32,156 nt of DNA from Bacteroidota bacterium (GCA_947459415.1 CANHDN010000014.1:1-32156), one strand, 5' to 3'; positions 609-8,060 are shown, numbered from the stretch's first letter. Made by a program: numbers and translations. Notes: generated by a model from the letters alone, not told the origin.

Positions 609-3212
609 ATGTCAAAAGAACTTTCACACAAATACAAAATTAGAGACATCAAAATATTTGGTTCAACTGAATGGCTCGCCAATAATGAGAAGAAATATCG
701 TCAGGTATTTGATGAAGCTGAATGTAGCTTCATTTATTGTGAACTTTCCTTTTTTAATAAATTGTTTGATGAGCAAGATTGGTCGGCTAGAATCAGCTTA
801 AAATGCGTCAATGTTGAGGATGGGGCAGAGATTTGTAATTTAACTGCCGATAGAAGTATCTTAAAGGACGAAAACATTGTTTTTATTAGAGAAGGATGGG
901 GCGTTAAAAATGCAGGTAATTATTGGAAGAAAGGCACCTACAGATGGGAGGCCTGGATAGACAATGAATTTGTTGGTGAAAGGATTTTTTATATCATAGA
1001 TCTAGGCTTGGTTTCTGAAACGGTGAATCCATTTTTTAAAATTAATAAAGTAAAATTATATGAAGGTCCAGAGTCTAATGTCATTGAATCTGAGCGTAAA
1101 TATTATTCTGTTTTTAGCAGCGAAGAAACCAGATATGTTTGGCTCGAATTAGATCTTGAAAATCTAATTGATGAGGTGGCAGTTTGGCCTTGTGAATTAC
1201 AATTTTACTTTAATACCAATACTGGCCAATTAAAAGGGGCTATAGATAAGTTGTTATTTGTAGAGACAAGCCAGAAAACATTTCAATGCACAGTTGGCTG
1301 GGGAAACCAAATGAAAGGGACTTGGGGAATAGATGCCTATTCTATTAGTGTACTTTTTATGGATCAAATAATAGCCACCATTCCATTTGAAATTGGTGTA
1401 AACTTTATTGATGAGGCAAGGCCAGTTATTCTAAAAGCTAAACCCAAGGAGCCTATTAAGGCTGAACCAATGGATGCAAGCATGGAAAAACTCTTGCAAG
1501 AATTAGATGCACTCATTGGTTTAGATGACATTAAAAAGAAGGTAAAAGAATATACTACCTACCTTAATTTTTTAAAGATCAGAAAAGAAAAAGGGTTTGA
1601 TGATACCGAAAGAATAAACCTGCATGCTGTGTTCACGGGTAATCCGGGAACGGGTAAAACTACTGTAGCCAATATGCTTGGTATGATTTATCATCAAATG
1701 GGATTGCTGAGCAAAGGTCATGTATTGGAAGTGGACAGAAGTGATTTAGTGGCTGAATATATTGGCCAAACTGCTCCAAAAACAAAGGAGGCAATTAAAA
1801 AAGCAAGAGGCGGTATTTTATTTGTAGATGAGGCATATGCCTTGGCAAGAAAAAATGATGATTCAAAAGATTTTGGTAAAGAAGCCATCGAAATATTACT
1901 CAAAGAAATGAGTGATGGAGAAGGTGACTTAGCAATTATTGTGGCAGGTTATCCAAATGAAATGAATAATTTCTTGGCATCAAACCCGGGTATGCGTTCT
2001 CGTTTTAGTATGTTTTATGATTTTGTAGACTATATCCCACAAGAGTTAATGCAAATTGCTAGGTTTACCATGCAAAAACGCGGAGTAACTTTAAGCGCAG
2101 GTGCAGAAGAATACCTATATAAAAAATTAGTGGATGCTTATCGAAATAGGGATGCCGCATTTGGGAATGCGCGCTACGTAAATACCCTCATAGATGAAAG
2201 TAAAATGAACATGGGATTACGTTTGATGCAAACCAATAATCCAGCTTTGTTAACGAATGAAGAAATTTCTACTATTCAAAGTGCAGACATTGAAAGGATT
2301 TTTGAAGGTAAGAAAAAGGGAATTGCAGATATTCCAATTGATGAAGATTTGCTCAAGCAGGCTTTGGCTACTTTGCACCATTTAATTGGGTTAGAATCTG
2401 TTAAAAATGAAATAGATGAGTTGGTTAAACTTGTTCGTTTTTACAGAGAAATTGGGAAAGATGTCCGTCAAAGTTTTTCATTACATGCCGTTTTTACAGG
2501 TAACCCAGGTACGGGTAAAACTACGGTGGCCAGAATATTAGCTCAAATTTACAAGGCTTTGGGTATTTTAGAACGAGGCAATCTGGTAGAATGTGATAGG
2601 CAAGCCTTAGTAGGTGGCTTTGTAGGTCAAACGGCCATTAAAACAGCAGAATTAATAGATAAAGCACAAGGTGGTGTATTGTTTATTGATGAAGCCTACG
2701 CATTAAGTGAAGGTGGAGAAAATGATTTTGGTAAAGAAGCCATTGAAACTTTATTGAAGCGCATGGAAGATAACCGGGGTAATTTTATTGTGATTGTTGC
2801 TGGGTATACAGAAAATATGCGCAGGTTTTTGGAGAGTAACCCAGGTTTACGTTCACGCTTTGATAGGGAACTCCATTTTGAAGACTATGCAGCAGAGCAA
2901 TTGTTTCACATTGCAATTAAAATGTTAATGGGTAATAATATCACTCCAAATGAAGCTGCCTCTGCACATTTACAAATGTATTTTTCAGATTTGTTTAAAA
3001 ATAGAAACCAGTATTTTGGTAATGCCAGAAATGTGAGAAAGGTAGTAGAGGAGGTAATTAAAAGTCAACATTTGAGATTAGCTAAATTACCTCAAACAGA
3101 GCGAAGCACAGAAATGATTAACACCTTGTATTTGGAAGATGTGCAGCATTTAAAAGTAGTTCCAAATGAGGAGACACCAAAAAGAAATATTGGTTTTAAG
3201 CAGAGTACTTAG
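609..3212 (+). CDS. Tandem CbbX/SpoVK-type AAA+ ATPase with duplicated beta-rich N-terminal domain
   Basis: The 867-residue protein has two complete AAA+ modules of the CbxX/CfqX (CbbX, SpoVK) type. Walker A motifs GNPGTGKTT lie at about residues 344-352 and 631-639. Walker B motifs are GILFVDEAYAL and GVLFIDEAYAL. Each module also has sensor-1-like IVAGY and the arginine-finger motif NPGxRSRF. Known relatives are hexameric remodelling ATPases; CbbX reactivates Rubisco, but no Rubisco gene is present and the client here is unknown. The first ~280 residues match nothing I recognise. They look like two copies (about 15-130 and 146-262) of one beta-rich domain, sharing KKY..VF...E....EL near the start and GWG...KGT/GW near the end. 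There is no signal peptide, so it is probably cytoplasmic. Its 3' end overlaps the convergent PKS gene by 17 bases. Confidence 0.93.
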   Translation: MSKELSHKYKIRDIKIFGSTEWLANNEKKYRQVFDEAECSFIYCELSFFNKLFDEQDWSARISLKCVNVEDGAEICNLTADRSILKDENIVFIREGWGVKNAGNYWKKGTYRWEAWIDNEFVGERIFYIIDLGLVSETVNPFFKINKVKLYEGPESNVIESERKYYSVFSSEETRYVWLELDLENLIDEVAVWPCELQFYFNTNTGQLKGAIDKLLFVETSQKTFQCTVGWGNQMKGTWGIDAYSISVLFMDQIIATIPFEIGVNFIDEARPVILKAKPKEPIKAEPMDASMEKLLQELDALIGLDDIKKKVKEYTTYLNFLKIRKEKGFDDTERINLHAVFTGNPGTGKTTVANMLGMIYHQMGLLSKGHVLEVDRSDLVAEYIGQTAPKTKEAIKKARGGILFVDEAYALARKNDDSKDFGKEAIEILLKEMSDGEGDLAIIVAGYPNEMNNFLASNPGMRSRFSMFYDFVDYIPQELMQIARFTMQKRGVTLSAGAEEYLYKKLVDAYRNRDAAFGNARYVNTLIDESKMNMGLRLMQTNNPALLTNEEISTIQSADIERIFEGKKKGIADIPIDEDLLKQALATLHHLIGLESVKNEIDELVKLVRFYREIGKDVRQSFSLHAVFTGNPGTGKTTVARILAQIYKALGILERGNLVECDRQALVGGFVGQTAIKTAELIDKAQGGVLFIDEAYALSEGGENDFGKEAIETLLKRMEDNRGNFIVIVAGYTENMRRFLESNPGLRSRFDRELHFEDYAAEQLFHIAIKMLMGNNITPNEAASAHLQMYFSDLFKNRNQYFGNARNVRKVVEEVIKSQHLRLAKLPQTERSTEMINTLYLEDVQHLKVVPNEETPKRNIGFKQST

Positions 3213-4278
3213 GCTGGTTTAAAAGCATTGTTTCTACCGTTAATCCGGGGCCGAAGCCAGCAGTAAAACAAGCTTGATTTGGTAAATAACCATCTCGCTT
3301 TAGAATATTTTCCAATACAAAAAGTATGGTACTGCTAGATAGATTTCCTACTTGTTTTAATACTTCATAGCTGGCACGCAAATCTGTTTGGCTCAGACCT
3401 AATTCGGCCGATAAATAATCTAAAATTTTTCTACCTCCAGGGTGTATACCCCAATGTTGAATGGAAGTAATAGAGGTGTTATTCTTTAATAATGCCTCTT
3501 CAATAATAGGTTTAATGGCACTTTGAAGTATTTGCGGAATATAGGCGCTCAAGGTCATTAAGAAGCCAGTTTCATGAATACTCCAAGCCATGTCTGATTT
3601 TCCTTGTGTAACAATTTTGGAATAAAAGGAGTCTATCGTAAAATAGGAGTTGTGATTTGGTTTTTTAGCACTTACTAAACAAGCTGCAGCCCCATCTGCG
3701 AATAATAAATTAGCTGCTATTTGGTCTGTATCTTTGGCTTTATTAAAATGTAAGGTGCACAGTTCTACACTTACAATTAATACGCAAGCATTGGGGTCAC
3801 TTTGGCAATAGGCATCGGCAATTTTTAAGGCATGGAAGTATGCATAGCAACCCATAAAGTTTACAGAACTCCTATGGATGTTTGCAGGTAAATTGAGCGT
3901 TTCAACTAACATTAAATCTAAGCCAGGAGCAGCCATACCCGTGCATGAAACACTAATTAGGTGGCTTATTTTTTCTTCTTGTAAAGAGCCTTGTGCTGCT
4001 TTTGATGCAAGAGGTAATGCATGTTTAAAATAGGATTCCATGCGTTTAGAAACACTTGGCTCTTCCTGATTTATAAAAAGTTCTTTTTGACTTTCTGCTA
4101 AATGAAAGTCTGGTAAGCAACTATGCCTATAATCAATTCCACTGCGCTGATACATGAGCATCAACTTTGCTTTTTCTATTTCAGTAAAATCATATTGTTC
4201 TGACATATAATGGCCTAATTCAATTTGTGACAGTTGATAGGCCGGAAGGCAGGTTTGAATATTAAAAAGGTAACTCAC
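3196..4278 (-). CDS. Type III polyketide synthase (chalcone/stilbene synthase family)
   Basis: The 360-residue length is typical of type III PKSs, homodimeric ketosynthases that extend an acyl-CoA starter with malonyl-CoA and cyclise it. The full Cys-His-Asn triad is visible: Cys144 in FMGCYA, His279 in WGIHPGG and Asn312 in VGNLSS. The C-terminal GFGPG motif is also present. The active-site Cys is followed by YAYFHAL, unlike the plant GCFAGG motif, which is normal for bacterial members. The start overlaps the end of the upstream prenyltransferase gene by 17 bases, suggesting translational coupling. The product (resorcinol, pyrone or similar) cannot be read from sequence. A KAS III-like enzyme is a less likely alternative because the HPGG and GFGPG motifs fit type III PKS. 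Confidence 0.9.
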   Translation of the reverse strand: MSYLFNIQTCLPAYQLSQIELGHYMSEQYDFTEIEKAKLMLMYQRSGIDYRHSCLPDFHLAESQKELFINQEEPSVSKRMESYFKHALPLASKAAQGSLQEEKISHLISVSCTGMAAPGLDLMLVETLNLPANIHRSSVNFMGCYAYFHALKIADAYCQSDPNACVLIVSVELCTLHFNKAKDTDQIAANLLFADGAAACLVSAKKPNHNSYFTIDSFYSKIVTQGKSDMAWSIHETGFLMTLSAYIPQILQSAIKPIIEEALLKNNTSITSIQHWGIHPGGRKILDYLSAELGLSQTDLRASYEVLKQVGNLSSSTILFVLENILKRDGYLPNQACFTAGFGPGLTVETMLLNQPKYSA

Positions 4279-5152
4279 TTATGTTTTTTAAATAGATTAT
4301 GGCTAAGTAATATAATACCAGCGAAATGGAAGAGATTTTGTTTAACATCATGGTATATCTGAAATTAGCATACGCATCACTTCGCCTAACTTTGTTAAAC
4401 CACCAGGTAAAAAAACTAAATGGTGGAAATATAAAAACAAGAAATAAATAAAATAAATGAGATTGTTTGGTGTTTATTAAAAAATAAGCCATGATGATAA
4501 TCACTAGTAAATTCATGAGTGCTGAAAATCCAAAAGTTCCTTGTATGCCTAATACCCTGCTTAGGGTTAAATCTCCACTGTTTTTATCTGCTTCATGTTG
4601 GTAGATTTGGGTCATAGGGTAAGCGCCAGCAACCATTAAACTGCTAATGAAGGCAGGTAGTAAAAAATTGGTTTGAGCCAAATTTTCTTGGTAGTTTGTT
4701 TCTTGACAAAACAAATAAGTGAGTGCATATGTAACAAAACCTTGAAAAATAATTACAGATAGAAAGCTTAGTACAGGAAACTTTTTTAGTCGAATTGCCT
4801 TCCAGCTATAAGCAATAGAAACGATGATATAAGCACCCACTAAAAGGCTTAGAATGGGGTGGATCCAATAACTATATGCAATGGCTATGATATTGAAAGC
4901 CATGGAAATTTTTAATAGCCAATGATCTGCTTGTGGCGGATTTTGTAATCCGCCAATACTGCTTGTATCTTGATCTTGAAAACTATTAAAGCCATTGCTT
5001 GCTGGATAAATAAGTAGATGTAAAATGATAAAAATATGAATTGCTTTTTCAATGTCTATGGTTTCTGCATAGGATAAGGCAAAGAGAAAAACAGGTAAAA
5101 GGAAAAATGAAAATGGAATTCTAAGTAAAATTAAATAGGAAGGTATTTTCAT
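4262..5152 (-). CDS. UbiA-family prenyltransferase
   Basis: The 296-residue protein has about eight to nine hydrophobic segments and two aspartate-rich loops in the positions typical of UbiA-type intramembrane prenyltransferases: NGFNSFQDQDT at about residues 54-64 and YQHEADKNSGD near residue 190. These enzymes attach isoprenoid diphosphates to aromatic acceptors using Mg2+ bound by the Asp motifs. The first loop departs from the canonical NDxxDxxxD, with an Asn-rich NGFNSFQDQD form, so chemistry or acceptor may differ. It is the first gene of a two-gene unit with the type III PKS. I infer that it prenylates the PKS product in the inner membrane. Menaquinone (MenA-like) or heme O synthase is less likely given the partner. 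Confidence 0.82.
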   Translation of the reverse strand: MKIPSYLILLRIPFSFFLLPVFLFALSYAETIDIEKAIHIFIILHLLIYPASNGFNSFQDQDTSSIGGLQNPPQADHWLLKISMAFNIIAIAYSYWIHPILSLLVGAYIIVSIAYSWKAIRLKKFPVLSFLSVIIFQGFVTYALTYLFCQETNYQENLAQTNFLLPAFISSLMVAGAYPMTQIYQHEADKNSGDLTLSRVLGIQGTFGFSALMNLLVIIIMAYFLINTKQSHLFYLFLVFIFPPFSFFTWWFNKVRRSDAYANFRYTMMLNKISSISLVLYYLAIIYLKNISELPF

Positions 5153-5210: not shown

Positions 5211-5218
5211 CAAATATA
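5211..5218 (-). promoter_or_regulatory. Putative -7 element upstream of the UbiA/PKS unit
   Basis: On the minus strand TATATTTG fits the Bacteroidota -7 consensus TAnnTTTG. It lies about 60 bases before the UbiA start. No TTG is found at the expected 19-base spacing (one is nearer, at 9 bases), so this is only a half-match. Confidence 0.4.
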
Positions 5219-5343
5219 ATCATTTGACAACGTGAAAAAACCATAAAATATATACCATATTCTATACACATTACGCTTAAGCCATTAGCTTCTGCTTCTG
5301 TAATTTGTTAAAAAATCTTACATTCGAATATAATATCACAAGT

Positions 5344-6051
5344 ATGAATCAAGGAAAATTACCACATGTTCTTATTGCAGAAGACGATGTTACACTTGCC
5401 AATTTGCTGAGAGAGAATCTAAAATTATCTGGATTTACCACTCAAATAGCTAAAGATGGTCTGGAAGCCCTTGATATATTTAAAAAAGAGAAATTCGATA
5501 TCATCTTATTAGATGTGAATATGCCCAAGAAAAATGGATTTGAAGTAGCCAGGTTAATTAGAGATGATGATGCTTTTACTCCATTGGTATTTCTTACTGC
5601 AAATAGCAGCGAAGAAGATAAATTAAAGGGCTTTACACTAGGTGCAGATGAGTATATTACTAAACCTTTTAGTACACAAGAATTGGTAGCTAGGATCAGA
5701 GCTATTTTAAAAAGAACCATCCAAGTTATTCCTGAAATTATTTTAAAAGATGAAGTGTATGAATTTGCCGGAATGACTTTAGATGTTCCAAATAGGGTGC
5801 TAAAATATGCAGAAGGAGAGCGAAGAATCAGCACGACAGAATGTGATTTATTAAAACTATTTGTTAAAAATAAAGCTCAGCTTTTACCTCGTAAAAGTCT
5901 GGTACTGCATGTTTGGGGTAGAGATGATTTTTATACGGCACGCAATTTAGACGTATATATCAATAAGCTGCGTAATGTGTTAAAAGTTAATCCCAAGGTA
6001 GAAATAGTAAATATTCATGGGTCGGGTTTTAAACTTCTTGAAAACGAATAG
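5344..6051 (+). CDS. OmpR/PhoB-family response regulator
   Basis: A 235-residue two-domain regulator. The receiver domain (about 7-122) has the acidic pair EDD, phosphoacceptor Asp57 in LLDVNMP, a conserved Thr in FLTAN and Lys107 in TKPFS. The C-terminal part (about 140-232) is a winged-helix DNA-binding domain with VWGRDDFYTARNLDVYINKLRNVL, typical of the OmpR/PhoB group. I place the start at ATG 5344 (MNQGKLPHVLIAEDD) rather than the TTG at 5305 in the track, because the receiver fold begins just after it. The kinase gene follows after five bases, so the two form a two-component pair. Target genes are not evident. Confidence 0.93.
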   Translation: MNQGKLPHVLIAEDDVTLANLLRENLKLSGFTTQIAKDGLEALDIFKKEKFDIILLDVNMPKKNGFEVARLIRDDDAFTPLVFLTANSSEEDKLKGFTLGADEYITKPFSTQELVARIRAILKRTIQVIPEIILKDEVYEFAGMTLDVPNRVLKYAEGERRISTTECDLLKLFVKNKAQLLPRKSLVLHVWGRDDFYTARNLDVYINKLRNVLKVNPKVEIVNIHGSGFKLLENE

Positions 6052-6056
6052 TAAAC

Positions 6057-8060
6057 GTGTTTAAATACTTTTCATTTATTCTAGTTTTTGTTTTACTAAC
6101 TGATGCAAAATTATTTGGACAATCAGACAGTTTACTAATATATAAAAATTTAGAGCAAGGACTTTTAGTAAAATATAATCAGCCATCACAAGCTCAAATT
6201 ATCTTTCAACAAGTACTAGAACAGTCTAAACAAAAGGGAATTCGCAGCACTCAGGTTGAGGCATTAAAGCAATTAGCACAATTAGATATTTTATCAGCCA
6301 AGTATGGCAGTGCTAAAGCTTTAATCAATGAGGCACTTGCCACTTGTGAAAATGCAAATTTGGTTCAGAAAAAAGCAGAATTAACGTATCAACTAGCTAG
6401 CATTTTTCATGCCCAAGGAGATTTTACCAAAGCCCTTGAAAAGTATTTAGAATCTCTGCGCTTTTTTGAATCACGTGTAGATTTACCCAACAGTCTTAAT
6501 ACCTACATGGCATTGGCAGATTTGTATAACAAGCAGAATAATTTTTCTAAATCCATAGAATACAATTTAAAAGCACTGACCCTTTTCGAAAAACAAAATG
6601 ATAAATTTAGGTTGCTAAATATTTATGAGCAGGTGGGAGCAATGTATGCCAGGCAAAATCAATATAGAAAAGCGGTAGACTATTATAAAAAGGCAGAGCG
6701 CATTTATAAAGAATTAAATAATAAACCAGGTCAGGCTGCGGCACTCATAAACATGGCTGCTGTTTTTGTTGCTGAAGGCAATAAAATGGTGGCTTTAAAT
6801 AATTATATGGTAGCGTATCAATTGGTAGCACCCATGCATATTGTGCCATTAGAAGTAAGTAGCTTAAATGGTATGGCAAAATTATATGCCGATTTAAAAG
6901 ATTATGAAAAGGCAAATTTGAATTATAGAAAAGCAATTGCGCTGGCAAAACCAGCTGGTCTAAAAATTGAGTTAGAGGAGGCCTATCAAGGTTTATCTGA
7001 ATTATATAAAGGTTTAAATGATCCGGGTACTTCAAAGGCATTTCGCTCTTTGAGTTCAGAAATTAAGGACTCATTGTTTAATGATTCCATTTTAAAACAA
7101 ACGGCAGATTTACAATTGCTATTTGAGACAGAAAAAAAACAAGCCCAAATAGAATTAATGGGTAAAGAACAAAAATTAAGAGCCTTAGATTTACAACAAA
7201 CCAAGCAAGAGAAAAACTTTTTTCTTGCACTTTCTGTGCTCATGGCTTTACTCATATTGGTGTTTATTTTCTTTATCACCCAGAATAGAATTATCAATAA
7301 AAAGCTTACATCAGGAATGGCAGATTTGGCTATTAAAAATACTGAAATTGAAAGTCAAAGAGCTCAATTAGATCAATTGAATCAGGTGAAGGATCGATTC
7401 TTTTCTATTATATCTCATGATTTAAGAAATAATCTTACTACCATGAAACTCTATTTTGATCTAGTTTCTTCTCCATCATATAAAGAAAGCACTTCTGAAA
7501 TGAGTAAGCAGGTTGCTGCATCGGTTCAGAATACCATAGATTTATTAGAGAATTTGTTAGTTTGGGCATCGGGTCAAATTAAAGGAATACAGGTGGAGCC
7601 AAAAAGGGTTAGTGTGCATCATTTGGCCGAATTAAATTGTCAGATGTTGAGCAGTATGGCTTTTCAGAAACAAATTCAATTAACCAATGATACAGATTTA
7701 GATGCCTGTATTGTAGCTGATGAGAACATGGTAAATTTAATCATTAGGAACCTCCTTTCCAATGCAATTAAGTTTACTAGCGAGGGTGGATTTGTTAGCA
7801 TATTATCTCAGGAGGAGGCAGATTTTCATCAAATCATTGTCATAGATAATGGGGTTGGGATTTCTGAAGAGCACAGACAAACCCTATTTACTGCACATGC
7901 CAATGTAAGCACCCAAGGTACTGCTAACGAGAAGGGGACTGGATTGGGACTTTTACTATGCAAAGAATTTGTAGAGAAAAATGGTGGCAGCATTTGGGTT
8001 GAAAGCGAGAAGGGTAAGGGTTCTAGTTTTTATTTTACATTTCCTAAGGCTTTATCTTAG
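6057..8060 (+). CDS. TPR-containing sensor histidine kinase
   Basis: A 667-residue hybrid of sensory TPR array and kinase. It has an N-terminal signal sequence (FSFILVFVLLTDAKLFGQ). About six to seven tetratricopeptide-like repeats span roughly residues 30-330, probably periplasmic. A short coiled region is followed by a single membrane segment (FFLALSVLMALLILVFIFFI, about 383-403). The HisKA domain has SIISHDLRN (His454). The HATPase domain has the N-box NLLSNAIKF, G1 DNGVGI and G2 GTGLGLLLCKEF. The start is GTG, five bases after the regulator's stop, so the pair is an operon. Kinases of this design are frequent in Bacteroidota; the TPRs presumably sense a protein or peptide, but the signal is unknown. 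Confidence 0.92.
   Translation: MFKYFSFILVFVLLTDAKLFGQSDSLLIYKNLEQGLLVKYNQPSQAQIIFQQVLEQSKQKGIRSTQVEALKQLAQLDILSAKYGSAKALINEALATCENANLVQKKAELTYQLASIFHAQGDFTKALEKYLESLRFFESRVDLPNSLNTYMALADLYNKQNNFSKSIEYNLKALTLFEKQNDKFRLLNIYEQVGAMYARQNQYRKAVDYYKKAERIYKELNNKPGQAAALINMAAVFVAEGNKMVALNNYMVAYQLVAPMHIVPLEVSSLNGMAKLYADLKDYEKANLNYRKAIALAKPAGLKIELEEAYQGLSELYKGLNDPGTSKAFRSLSSEIKDSLFNDSILKQTADLQLLFETEKKQAQIELMGKEQKLRALDLQQTKQEKNFFLALSVLMALLILVFIFFITQNRIINKKLTSGMADLAIKNTEIESQRAQLDQLNQVKDRFFSIISHDLRNNLTTMKLYFDLVSSPSYKESTSEMSKQVAASVQNTIDLLENLLVWASGQIKGIQVEPKRVSVHHLAELNCQMLSSMAFQKQIQLTNDTDLDACIVADENMVNLIIRNLLSNAIKFTSEGGFVSILSQEEADFHQIIVIDNGVGISEEHRQTLFTAHANVSTQGTANEKGTGLGLLLCKEFVEKNGGSIWVESEKGKGSSFYFTFPKALS

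Follow-up and report, generated by a model that had tools for sequence, protein, structure and literature searches.

The closest described system to the genes reported here is agqABCD of Actinoplanes missouriensis, which yields alkyl-O-dihydrogeranyl-methoxyhydroquinones (Awakawa et al. 2011, as summarised in PMC10896814, PMC7692728 and PMC4044012). According to these summaries, the AgqA alkylresorcinols are prenylated and hydroxylated, agqB-D being the partner genes (PMC10896814, PMC7692728), and the prenylation is performed by a membrane-bound UbiA-like enzyme (PMC4044012). Operons encoding a polyketide synthase (PKS), a methyltransferase and an oxidoreductase without UbiA occur in planctomycetes and cyanobacteria and lead to methylated alkylresorcinols and hierridins (PMC10896814). 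The core of PKS, methyltransferase and FAD oxidoreductase is common to srsABC of Streptomyces griseus, hidABC of cyanobacteria, the planctomycete methyltransferase-oxidoreductase-PKS operon and the Bacteroidota genes described below; in the first three it makes decorated alkylresorcinols or alkylquinones (PMC10896814).

The Bacteroidota genes were found in a stretch of 32,156 nucleotides (GCA_947459415.1 CANHDN010000014.1:1-32156), the whole of which is called the window. AgqB and AgqC are a methyltransferase and an FAD enzyme, and the complete agqABCD-type set of PKS, methyltransferase, FAD enzyme and membrane prenyltransferase is present in the window genome, not as a single cluster but split over contigs C14 and C22. 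Both systems combine a type III PKS with three partner genes, a likeness taken from the descriptions in the cited summaries. The Actinoplanes cluster belongs to another phylum, whereas the genus of the window has its genes at two loci. Unlike agqABCD as summarised, the window system has UbiA first, overlapping the PKS, and includes an additional SDR, a flavin reductase and a divergent two-component system. The standard srsABC, hidABC and planctomycete clusters are without UbiA and have a gene order unlike that of the Bacteroidota set; a three-gene PKS-methyltransferase-FAD operon of their type was not found in the window genome, where the methyltransferase and FAD genes lie away from the PKS. 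The genes of the window locus are as follows.

5152-4262, minus strand: UbiA-superfamily integral membrane prenyltransferase gene, first of the pair (296 aa, ATG start; Pfam PF01040, 46 bits)
4278-3196, minus strand: type III PKS gene, second of the pair (360 aa, GTG start; Pfam PF00195/PF02797)
4262-4278, minus strand: 17 nt shared by the 3' end of UbiA and the 5' end of the PKS, as in most same-genus pairs read
5305-6051, plus strand: divergent response regulator, candidate regulator (TTG start set mechanically; first ATG near 5344)
6057-8060, plus strand: TPR-sensor histidine kinase, partner of the response regulator above
609-3212, plus strand: CbbX/SpoVK-type AAA ATPase, convergent neighbour, synteny conserved in the genus

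The reading frames and the 17-base overlap were as the initial annotation had given them, and both proteins score above the Pfam cut-off (Chal_sti_synt_N/C 75/78 bits, UbiA 46 bits). The overlap is exact in 10 of the 12 same-genus pairs read, the window pair included, and recurs down to 51-57% protein identity; the exceptions are L062 (47 nt) and L064 (35 nt), for which the longest start was taken. Given that exactly 17 nt recurs in this way, the overlap is evidently not due to chance. The two genes are probably translationally coupled. Comparison with the nearest relative gave dN/dS values of 0.073 for UbiA and 0.058 for the PKS with synonymous sites near saturation, and closer pairs gave 0.04-0.14. 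The initial annotation had proposed a survey of Bacteroidota genomes and would have fallen had the pair been conserved in no relative; in the survey the two genes were adjacent in all 31 genomes of the family that have both. This adjacency and the dN/dS of about 0.06-0.07 indicate that the pair is, as judged from sequence, a genuine, selected and conserved functional unit. The 3' end of the PKS gene also reaches 17 nt into the convergent AAA ATPase gene, and the equal length of the two overlaps looks like a coincidence. The AAA ATPase is probably outside the pathway.

Across five genera of the family, a response regulator and a TPR-histidine kinase diverge from UbiA, also where the PKS has been lost, and this two-component system may control the UbiA-PKS pair. 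On the minus strand at 5211-5218, upstream of UbiA, the sequence TATATTTG resembles TAnnTTTG, the -7 box of Bacteroidota, and is not accompanied by a clear -33 element.

The initial annotation stated that no methyltransferase or oxidase gene follows the pair. This is accurate at the locus itself, the AAA ATPase being the next gene there, and misleading for the genome as a whole, since both are encoded on contig C22:

C22, locus L175 2114-5295: methyltransferase-FAD-SDR-flavin reductase locus
C22 4588-5295: SAM methyltransferase, PRK06202-type
C22 3462-4598: flavoprotein (FAD) of the geranylgeranyl-reductase superfamily
L175:2114-3434: SDR and flavin-reductase-like genes, after the FAD gene

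The methyltransferase and FAD genes overlap by 14 nt, and each is the one strong match in the window genome to homologues linked to the pair elsewhere (53% identity in both cases). Other genera of the family have UbiA-PKS and, after it, the methyltransferase, the FAD flavoprotein, the SDR, the flavin reductase and in some cases a photolyase-related protein. The six genes from UbiA to the flavin reductase are contiguous in L078, L079, L082 and L083, and those on C22 stand in the same order. The window genome is a bin of 204 contigs. An assembly break between C14 and C22 was considered and rejected, for in the near-complete genome G013 the pair and the methyltransferase are on different large contigs (C2 at about 209 kb and C1 at about 433 kb). 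It is also unlikely that C22 is a foreign contig in the bin, as the methyltransferase and FAD proteins are about as close to three relatives (70-78% identity) as UbiA and PKS are to the same three (71-83%). The SDR and flavin-reductase-like proteins, and in L078, L079, L082 and L083 the photolyase-related DPRP proteins, travel with the methyltransferase and FAD genes. Such SDR, flavin-reductase and photolyase-related sets are light-responsive in other bacteria.

A close homologue of the PKS is present in 31 of the 64 family genomes; UbiA is present in all 31 and adjacent by coordinates in all of them, while the methyltransferase and the FAD gene are each found in 30. Genome G014, which is 81% complete, has the UbiA-PKS pair with neither the methyltransferase nor the FAD gene detected. 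Among the family genomes without the PKS, none has the methyltransferase and two, 65-70% complete, have the FAD gene. The sole exception to co-occurrence above 81% completeness is G009, with a lone UbiA. Linkage does not account for the co-occurrence, because of the 30 genomes carrying all four genes 21 have the methyltransferase away from the PKS. In an even sample of the phylum (148 near-complete genomes), the PKS was found in 46 genomes and UbiA in 23, every one of which also has the PKS. Fisher tests gave p values of 2e-17 to 9e-15 for the co-occurrence in the 64 family genomes and 1.6e-14 for the association of UbiA with PKS in the phylum sample, values which overstate the strength since related genomes are not independent. 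With UbiA in 23 of the 46 PKS genomes, prenylation would therefore be absent from some versions of the pathway.

A scan of one genome per species, covering 84,980 species, returned at least 586 relatives of the UbiA protein, the best 80 of which include members of the Chitinophagales, Cytophagales, Sphingobacteriales and Flavobacteriales. Of these best 80 loci, the PKS lies within the same stretch in 52, and 35 carry PKS, methyltransferase and FAD gene together. Where UbiA stands alone (16 genomes, including Pontibacter, Rufibacter, Hymenobacter, Emticicia and Arcicella) the PKS is elsewhere in 15, mostly adjoining the methyltransferase and/or FAD gene. No homologue of UbiA was found in the viral contigs or plasmids searched. 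PKS homologues up to 39% identical are present on plasmids; those in Psychrobacter and Deinococcus have a methyltransferase and an FAD gene nearby and no annotated prenyltransferase.

The residues of the two window proteins that bear on their chemistry are encoded at these positions:

3847-3849, minus strand: catalytic Cys144 codon of the PKS, NFMGC context
3442-3444, minus strand: catalytic His279 codon of the PKS, HPGG context
3343-3345, minus strand: catalytic Asn312 codon of the PKS, GNLSS context
4934-4996, minus strand: first Asp motif of UbiA, N53-x-x-N56-S57-x-x-D60-x-D62...IGGLxNPP, subfamily-specific
4565-4621, minus strand: second motif of UbiA, YPMTQIYQHEADKNSGDLT, with QHxxD in place of the MenA-type DxxxD

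The complete triad noted in the initial annotation was confirmed: Cys144, His279 and Asn312 are at those exact positions in the expected contexts, are invariant in an alignment of 14 members and, in a thiolase-fold protein, place it among the type III PKS enzymes. The best solved relatives, closest by sequence and by fold, are the Mycobacterium marinum type III PKS (7cb3) and PKS18 (1ted), with 27-28% identity and TM of about 0.89. PKS18 makes long-chain pyrones, and we know of no UbiA partner for mycobacterial PKS18 or the M. marinum enzyme. Structure and family alignments place the invariant C174 at the PKS18 tunnel residue Cys205, and the invariant C112 occupies the position of the second active-site cysteine (THNS Cys106, ORAS Cys120), the roles of the PKS18, THNS and ORAS residues being those given in PMC6274091. 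This pattern favours an acyl starter and a putative resorcinol-like product. The acyl-tunnel residues are only partly common to the window PKS and the mycobacterial enzymes, N208, A209 and L348 of PKS18 being H177, F178 and S314 here, and the changes of A209 to F178 and L348 to S314 make the starter uncertain. The nearest NCBIfam model is DpgA (157 bits, cut-off 425), thus starter and cyclisation could differ.

The UbiA protein belongs to its superfamily both by the Pfam score and by its AlphaFold model, which is all-helical (pLDDT 93) and finds 4tq3, 4od5 and 6m31, UbiA homologues or archaeal DGGGP synthases, as Foldseek matches in the PDB. In place of the NDxxDxxxD and DxxxD motifs required of aromatic prenyltransferases it has the variants NSxxDxD and QHxxD, which are invariant in the subfamily. 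Residues 53-62 read NGFNSFQDQD; N53, N56, S57, D60, D62, G67, G68, P72 and P73 are invariant in an alignment of 15 PKS-associated copies, in which 48 positions are invariant in all, D189 among them. The first motif was present in 77 and the second in 80 of the best 80 of at least 586 relatives, counts that are not fully independent of the search, whose patterns share residues with the second motif and with the stretch immediately preceding the first. The first motif had been called atypical. It differs from NDxxDxxxD, yet this is no oddity of the window protein: NSxxDxDxxxIGG is the norm of the subfamily.

The UbiA protein was also compared with named families. The EboC/UbiA-297 prenyltransferase of marine Flavobacteria is likewise a UbiA-like, non-MenA protein of Bacteroidota with a distinctive Asp motif, and EboC sits in the ebo cluster (PMC9235831). 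The window UbiA has a PKS partner and no EboC model match; with no ebo genes adjacent and different neighbours, this identity was rejected. A fifth, divergent UbiA-fold protein of the window genome (L178:5926-7053, 375 aa) matches no NCBIfam model above cut-off, and its surroundings look like a sugar/polysaccharide or natural-product region.

Homologues without the partner genes were found in the family. Five genomes of a sister genus (L084-L087 and L089, from G055, G058, G061, G053 and G059) have lost the UbiA-associated PKS, the methyltransferase and the FAD gene, and in them UbiA is first in an operon with an SDR and a flavin reductase, diverging from the same two-component system as in the window. 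Its first Asp motif is replaced by a NQLQxANANM-like sequence and its dN/dS is 0.14-0.22. It looks like a fold kept for a different job, possibly a non-catalytic one. Loss of the first motif within the family is confined to genomes from which PKS, methyltransferase and FAD gene are absent, which ties the motif to the PKS pathway. The lone UbiA of G009 (99% complete; L068 3590-4480) is in the same syntenic place, without the three other genes, and its second motif has drifted to YKHKSD; this may be decay at an early stage.

Gene content, conservation, co-occurrence, active-site residues and folds are taken from the results above, and from them we infer the substrates, order, product and role given here. 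Two steps of the pathway would be encoded by UbiA-PKS in the window and the rest by the genes on C22, that is, by at least two loci. The type III PKS would extend a long-chain acyl starter with malonyl-CoA and cyclise it to an alkyl-resorcinol or resorcylic acid, which the PRK06202-type enzyme would methylate. The membrane UbiA would then add a prenyl group to the phenolic product, and the flavoprotein would hydroxylate the ring or saturate the prenyl chain, giving a membrane-resident, prenylated (hydro)quinone-like phenolic lipid. By analogy with agqABCD, a prenylated resorcinol-type polyketide is the product class with the best precedent. We regard it as fairly likely that this split pathway leads to a prenylated, methylated and redox-tailored alkyl-resorcinol or -hydroquinone lipid. 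No product of a Bacteroidota UbiA-type III PKS cluster was found in the open-licence literature, an absence that is weak evidence.

The "minimal pathway" of the initial annotation, in which the two enzymes suffice for a simple prenylated polyketide and the genes on C22 have nothing to do with it, has become very improbable. The locus has two genes only in the window genus, the methyltransferase is apart from the PKS in most four-gene genomes, and G014 would fit such a pathway, but the methyltransferase and FAD genes accompany the pair in 30 of 31 genomes, adjoin it in many other Bacteroidota genera and keep the ancestral order on C22. It is less credible still that UbiA is a primary-metabolism enzyme (MenA, heme O synthase or like a DGGGP synthase) placed beside the PKS by chance. 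The weak NCBIfam matches to MenA (25 bits, cut-off 346) and to homogentisate phytyltransferase are far below cut-off; the genome encodes a separate MenA (238 bits, cut-off 102), CtaB and a DGGGP-synthase-type gene; and the window protein (P0002) and its homologues form a clade of their own, apart from the other UbiA paralogues of the genome. In the phylum sample the gene is moreover confined to a minority of the genomes and found only together with the PKS. Grouping with MenA or primary metabolism, which would have counted against the initial annotation, was thus not observed, and the MenA, CtaB and DGGGP-synthase identities were rejected.

A split pathway in which UbiA does not prenylate the PKS product has to be taken more seriously, though we think it rather unlikely. 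The product would be an alkylpyrone or other lipid, and UbiA would act on another acceptor or donor or serve as a scaffold or carrier. Since UbiA is without the canonical motifs, prenyl transfer is not assured; the motif-less protein of the sister genus is under selection, so the fold can persist without the site, and many genomes of the phylum carry the PKS without UbiA. Against this stand the 48 invariant positions, N56, D60, D62 and D189 included, and the loss of the first motif in the family only together with the PKS, methyltransferase and FAD gene.

Bacteroidota genomes are often predicted to carry type III PKS clusters, and in the window genus cluster-based mining misses half of the proposed prenylating pathway. 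The co-inheritance of PKS, UbiA, methyltransferase and flavoprotein, even when scattered, makes a four-enzyme pathway testable, and a UbiA subfamily is now defined whose metal motif is non-canonical. More tentatively, a large share of the Bacteroidota might make an unrecognised class of prenylated polyketide hydroquinone or quinone membrane lipid by way of a UbiA whose metal site is rearranged (NSxxDxD), and this lipid might act alongside menaquinone as a redox carrier or antioxidant; this wider proposal is a speculative one. A redox-active prenyl-phenol lipid, should that be the product, would enlarge the known quinone pool of these bacteria.

Other genera of the family (L088, L090 and L091) have a further type III PKS, distinct from the one described here and accompanied by an ICMT-type methyltransferase; this set is alkylpyrone-like, in the style of BpsAB.
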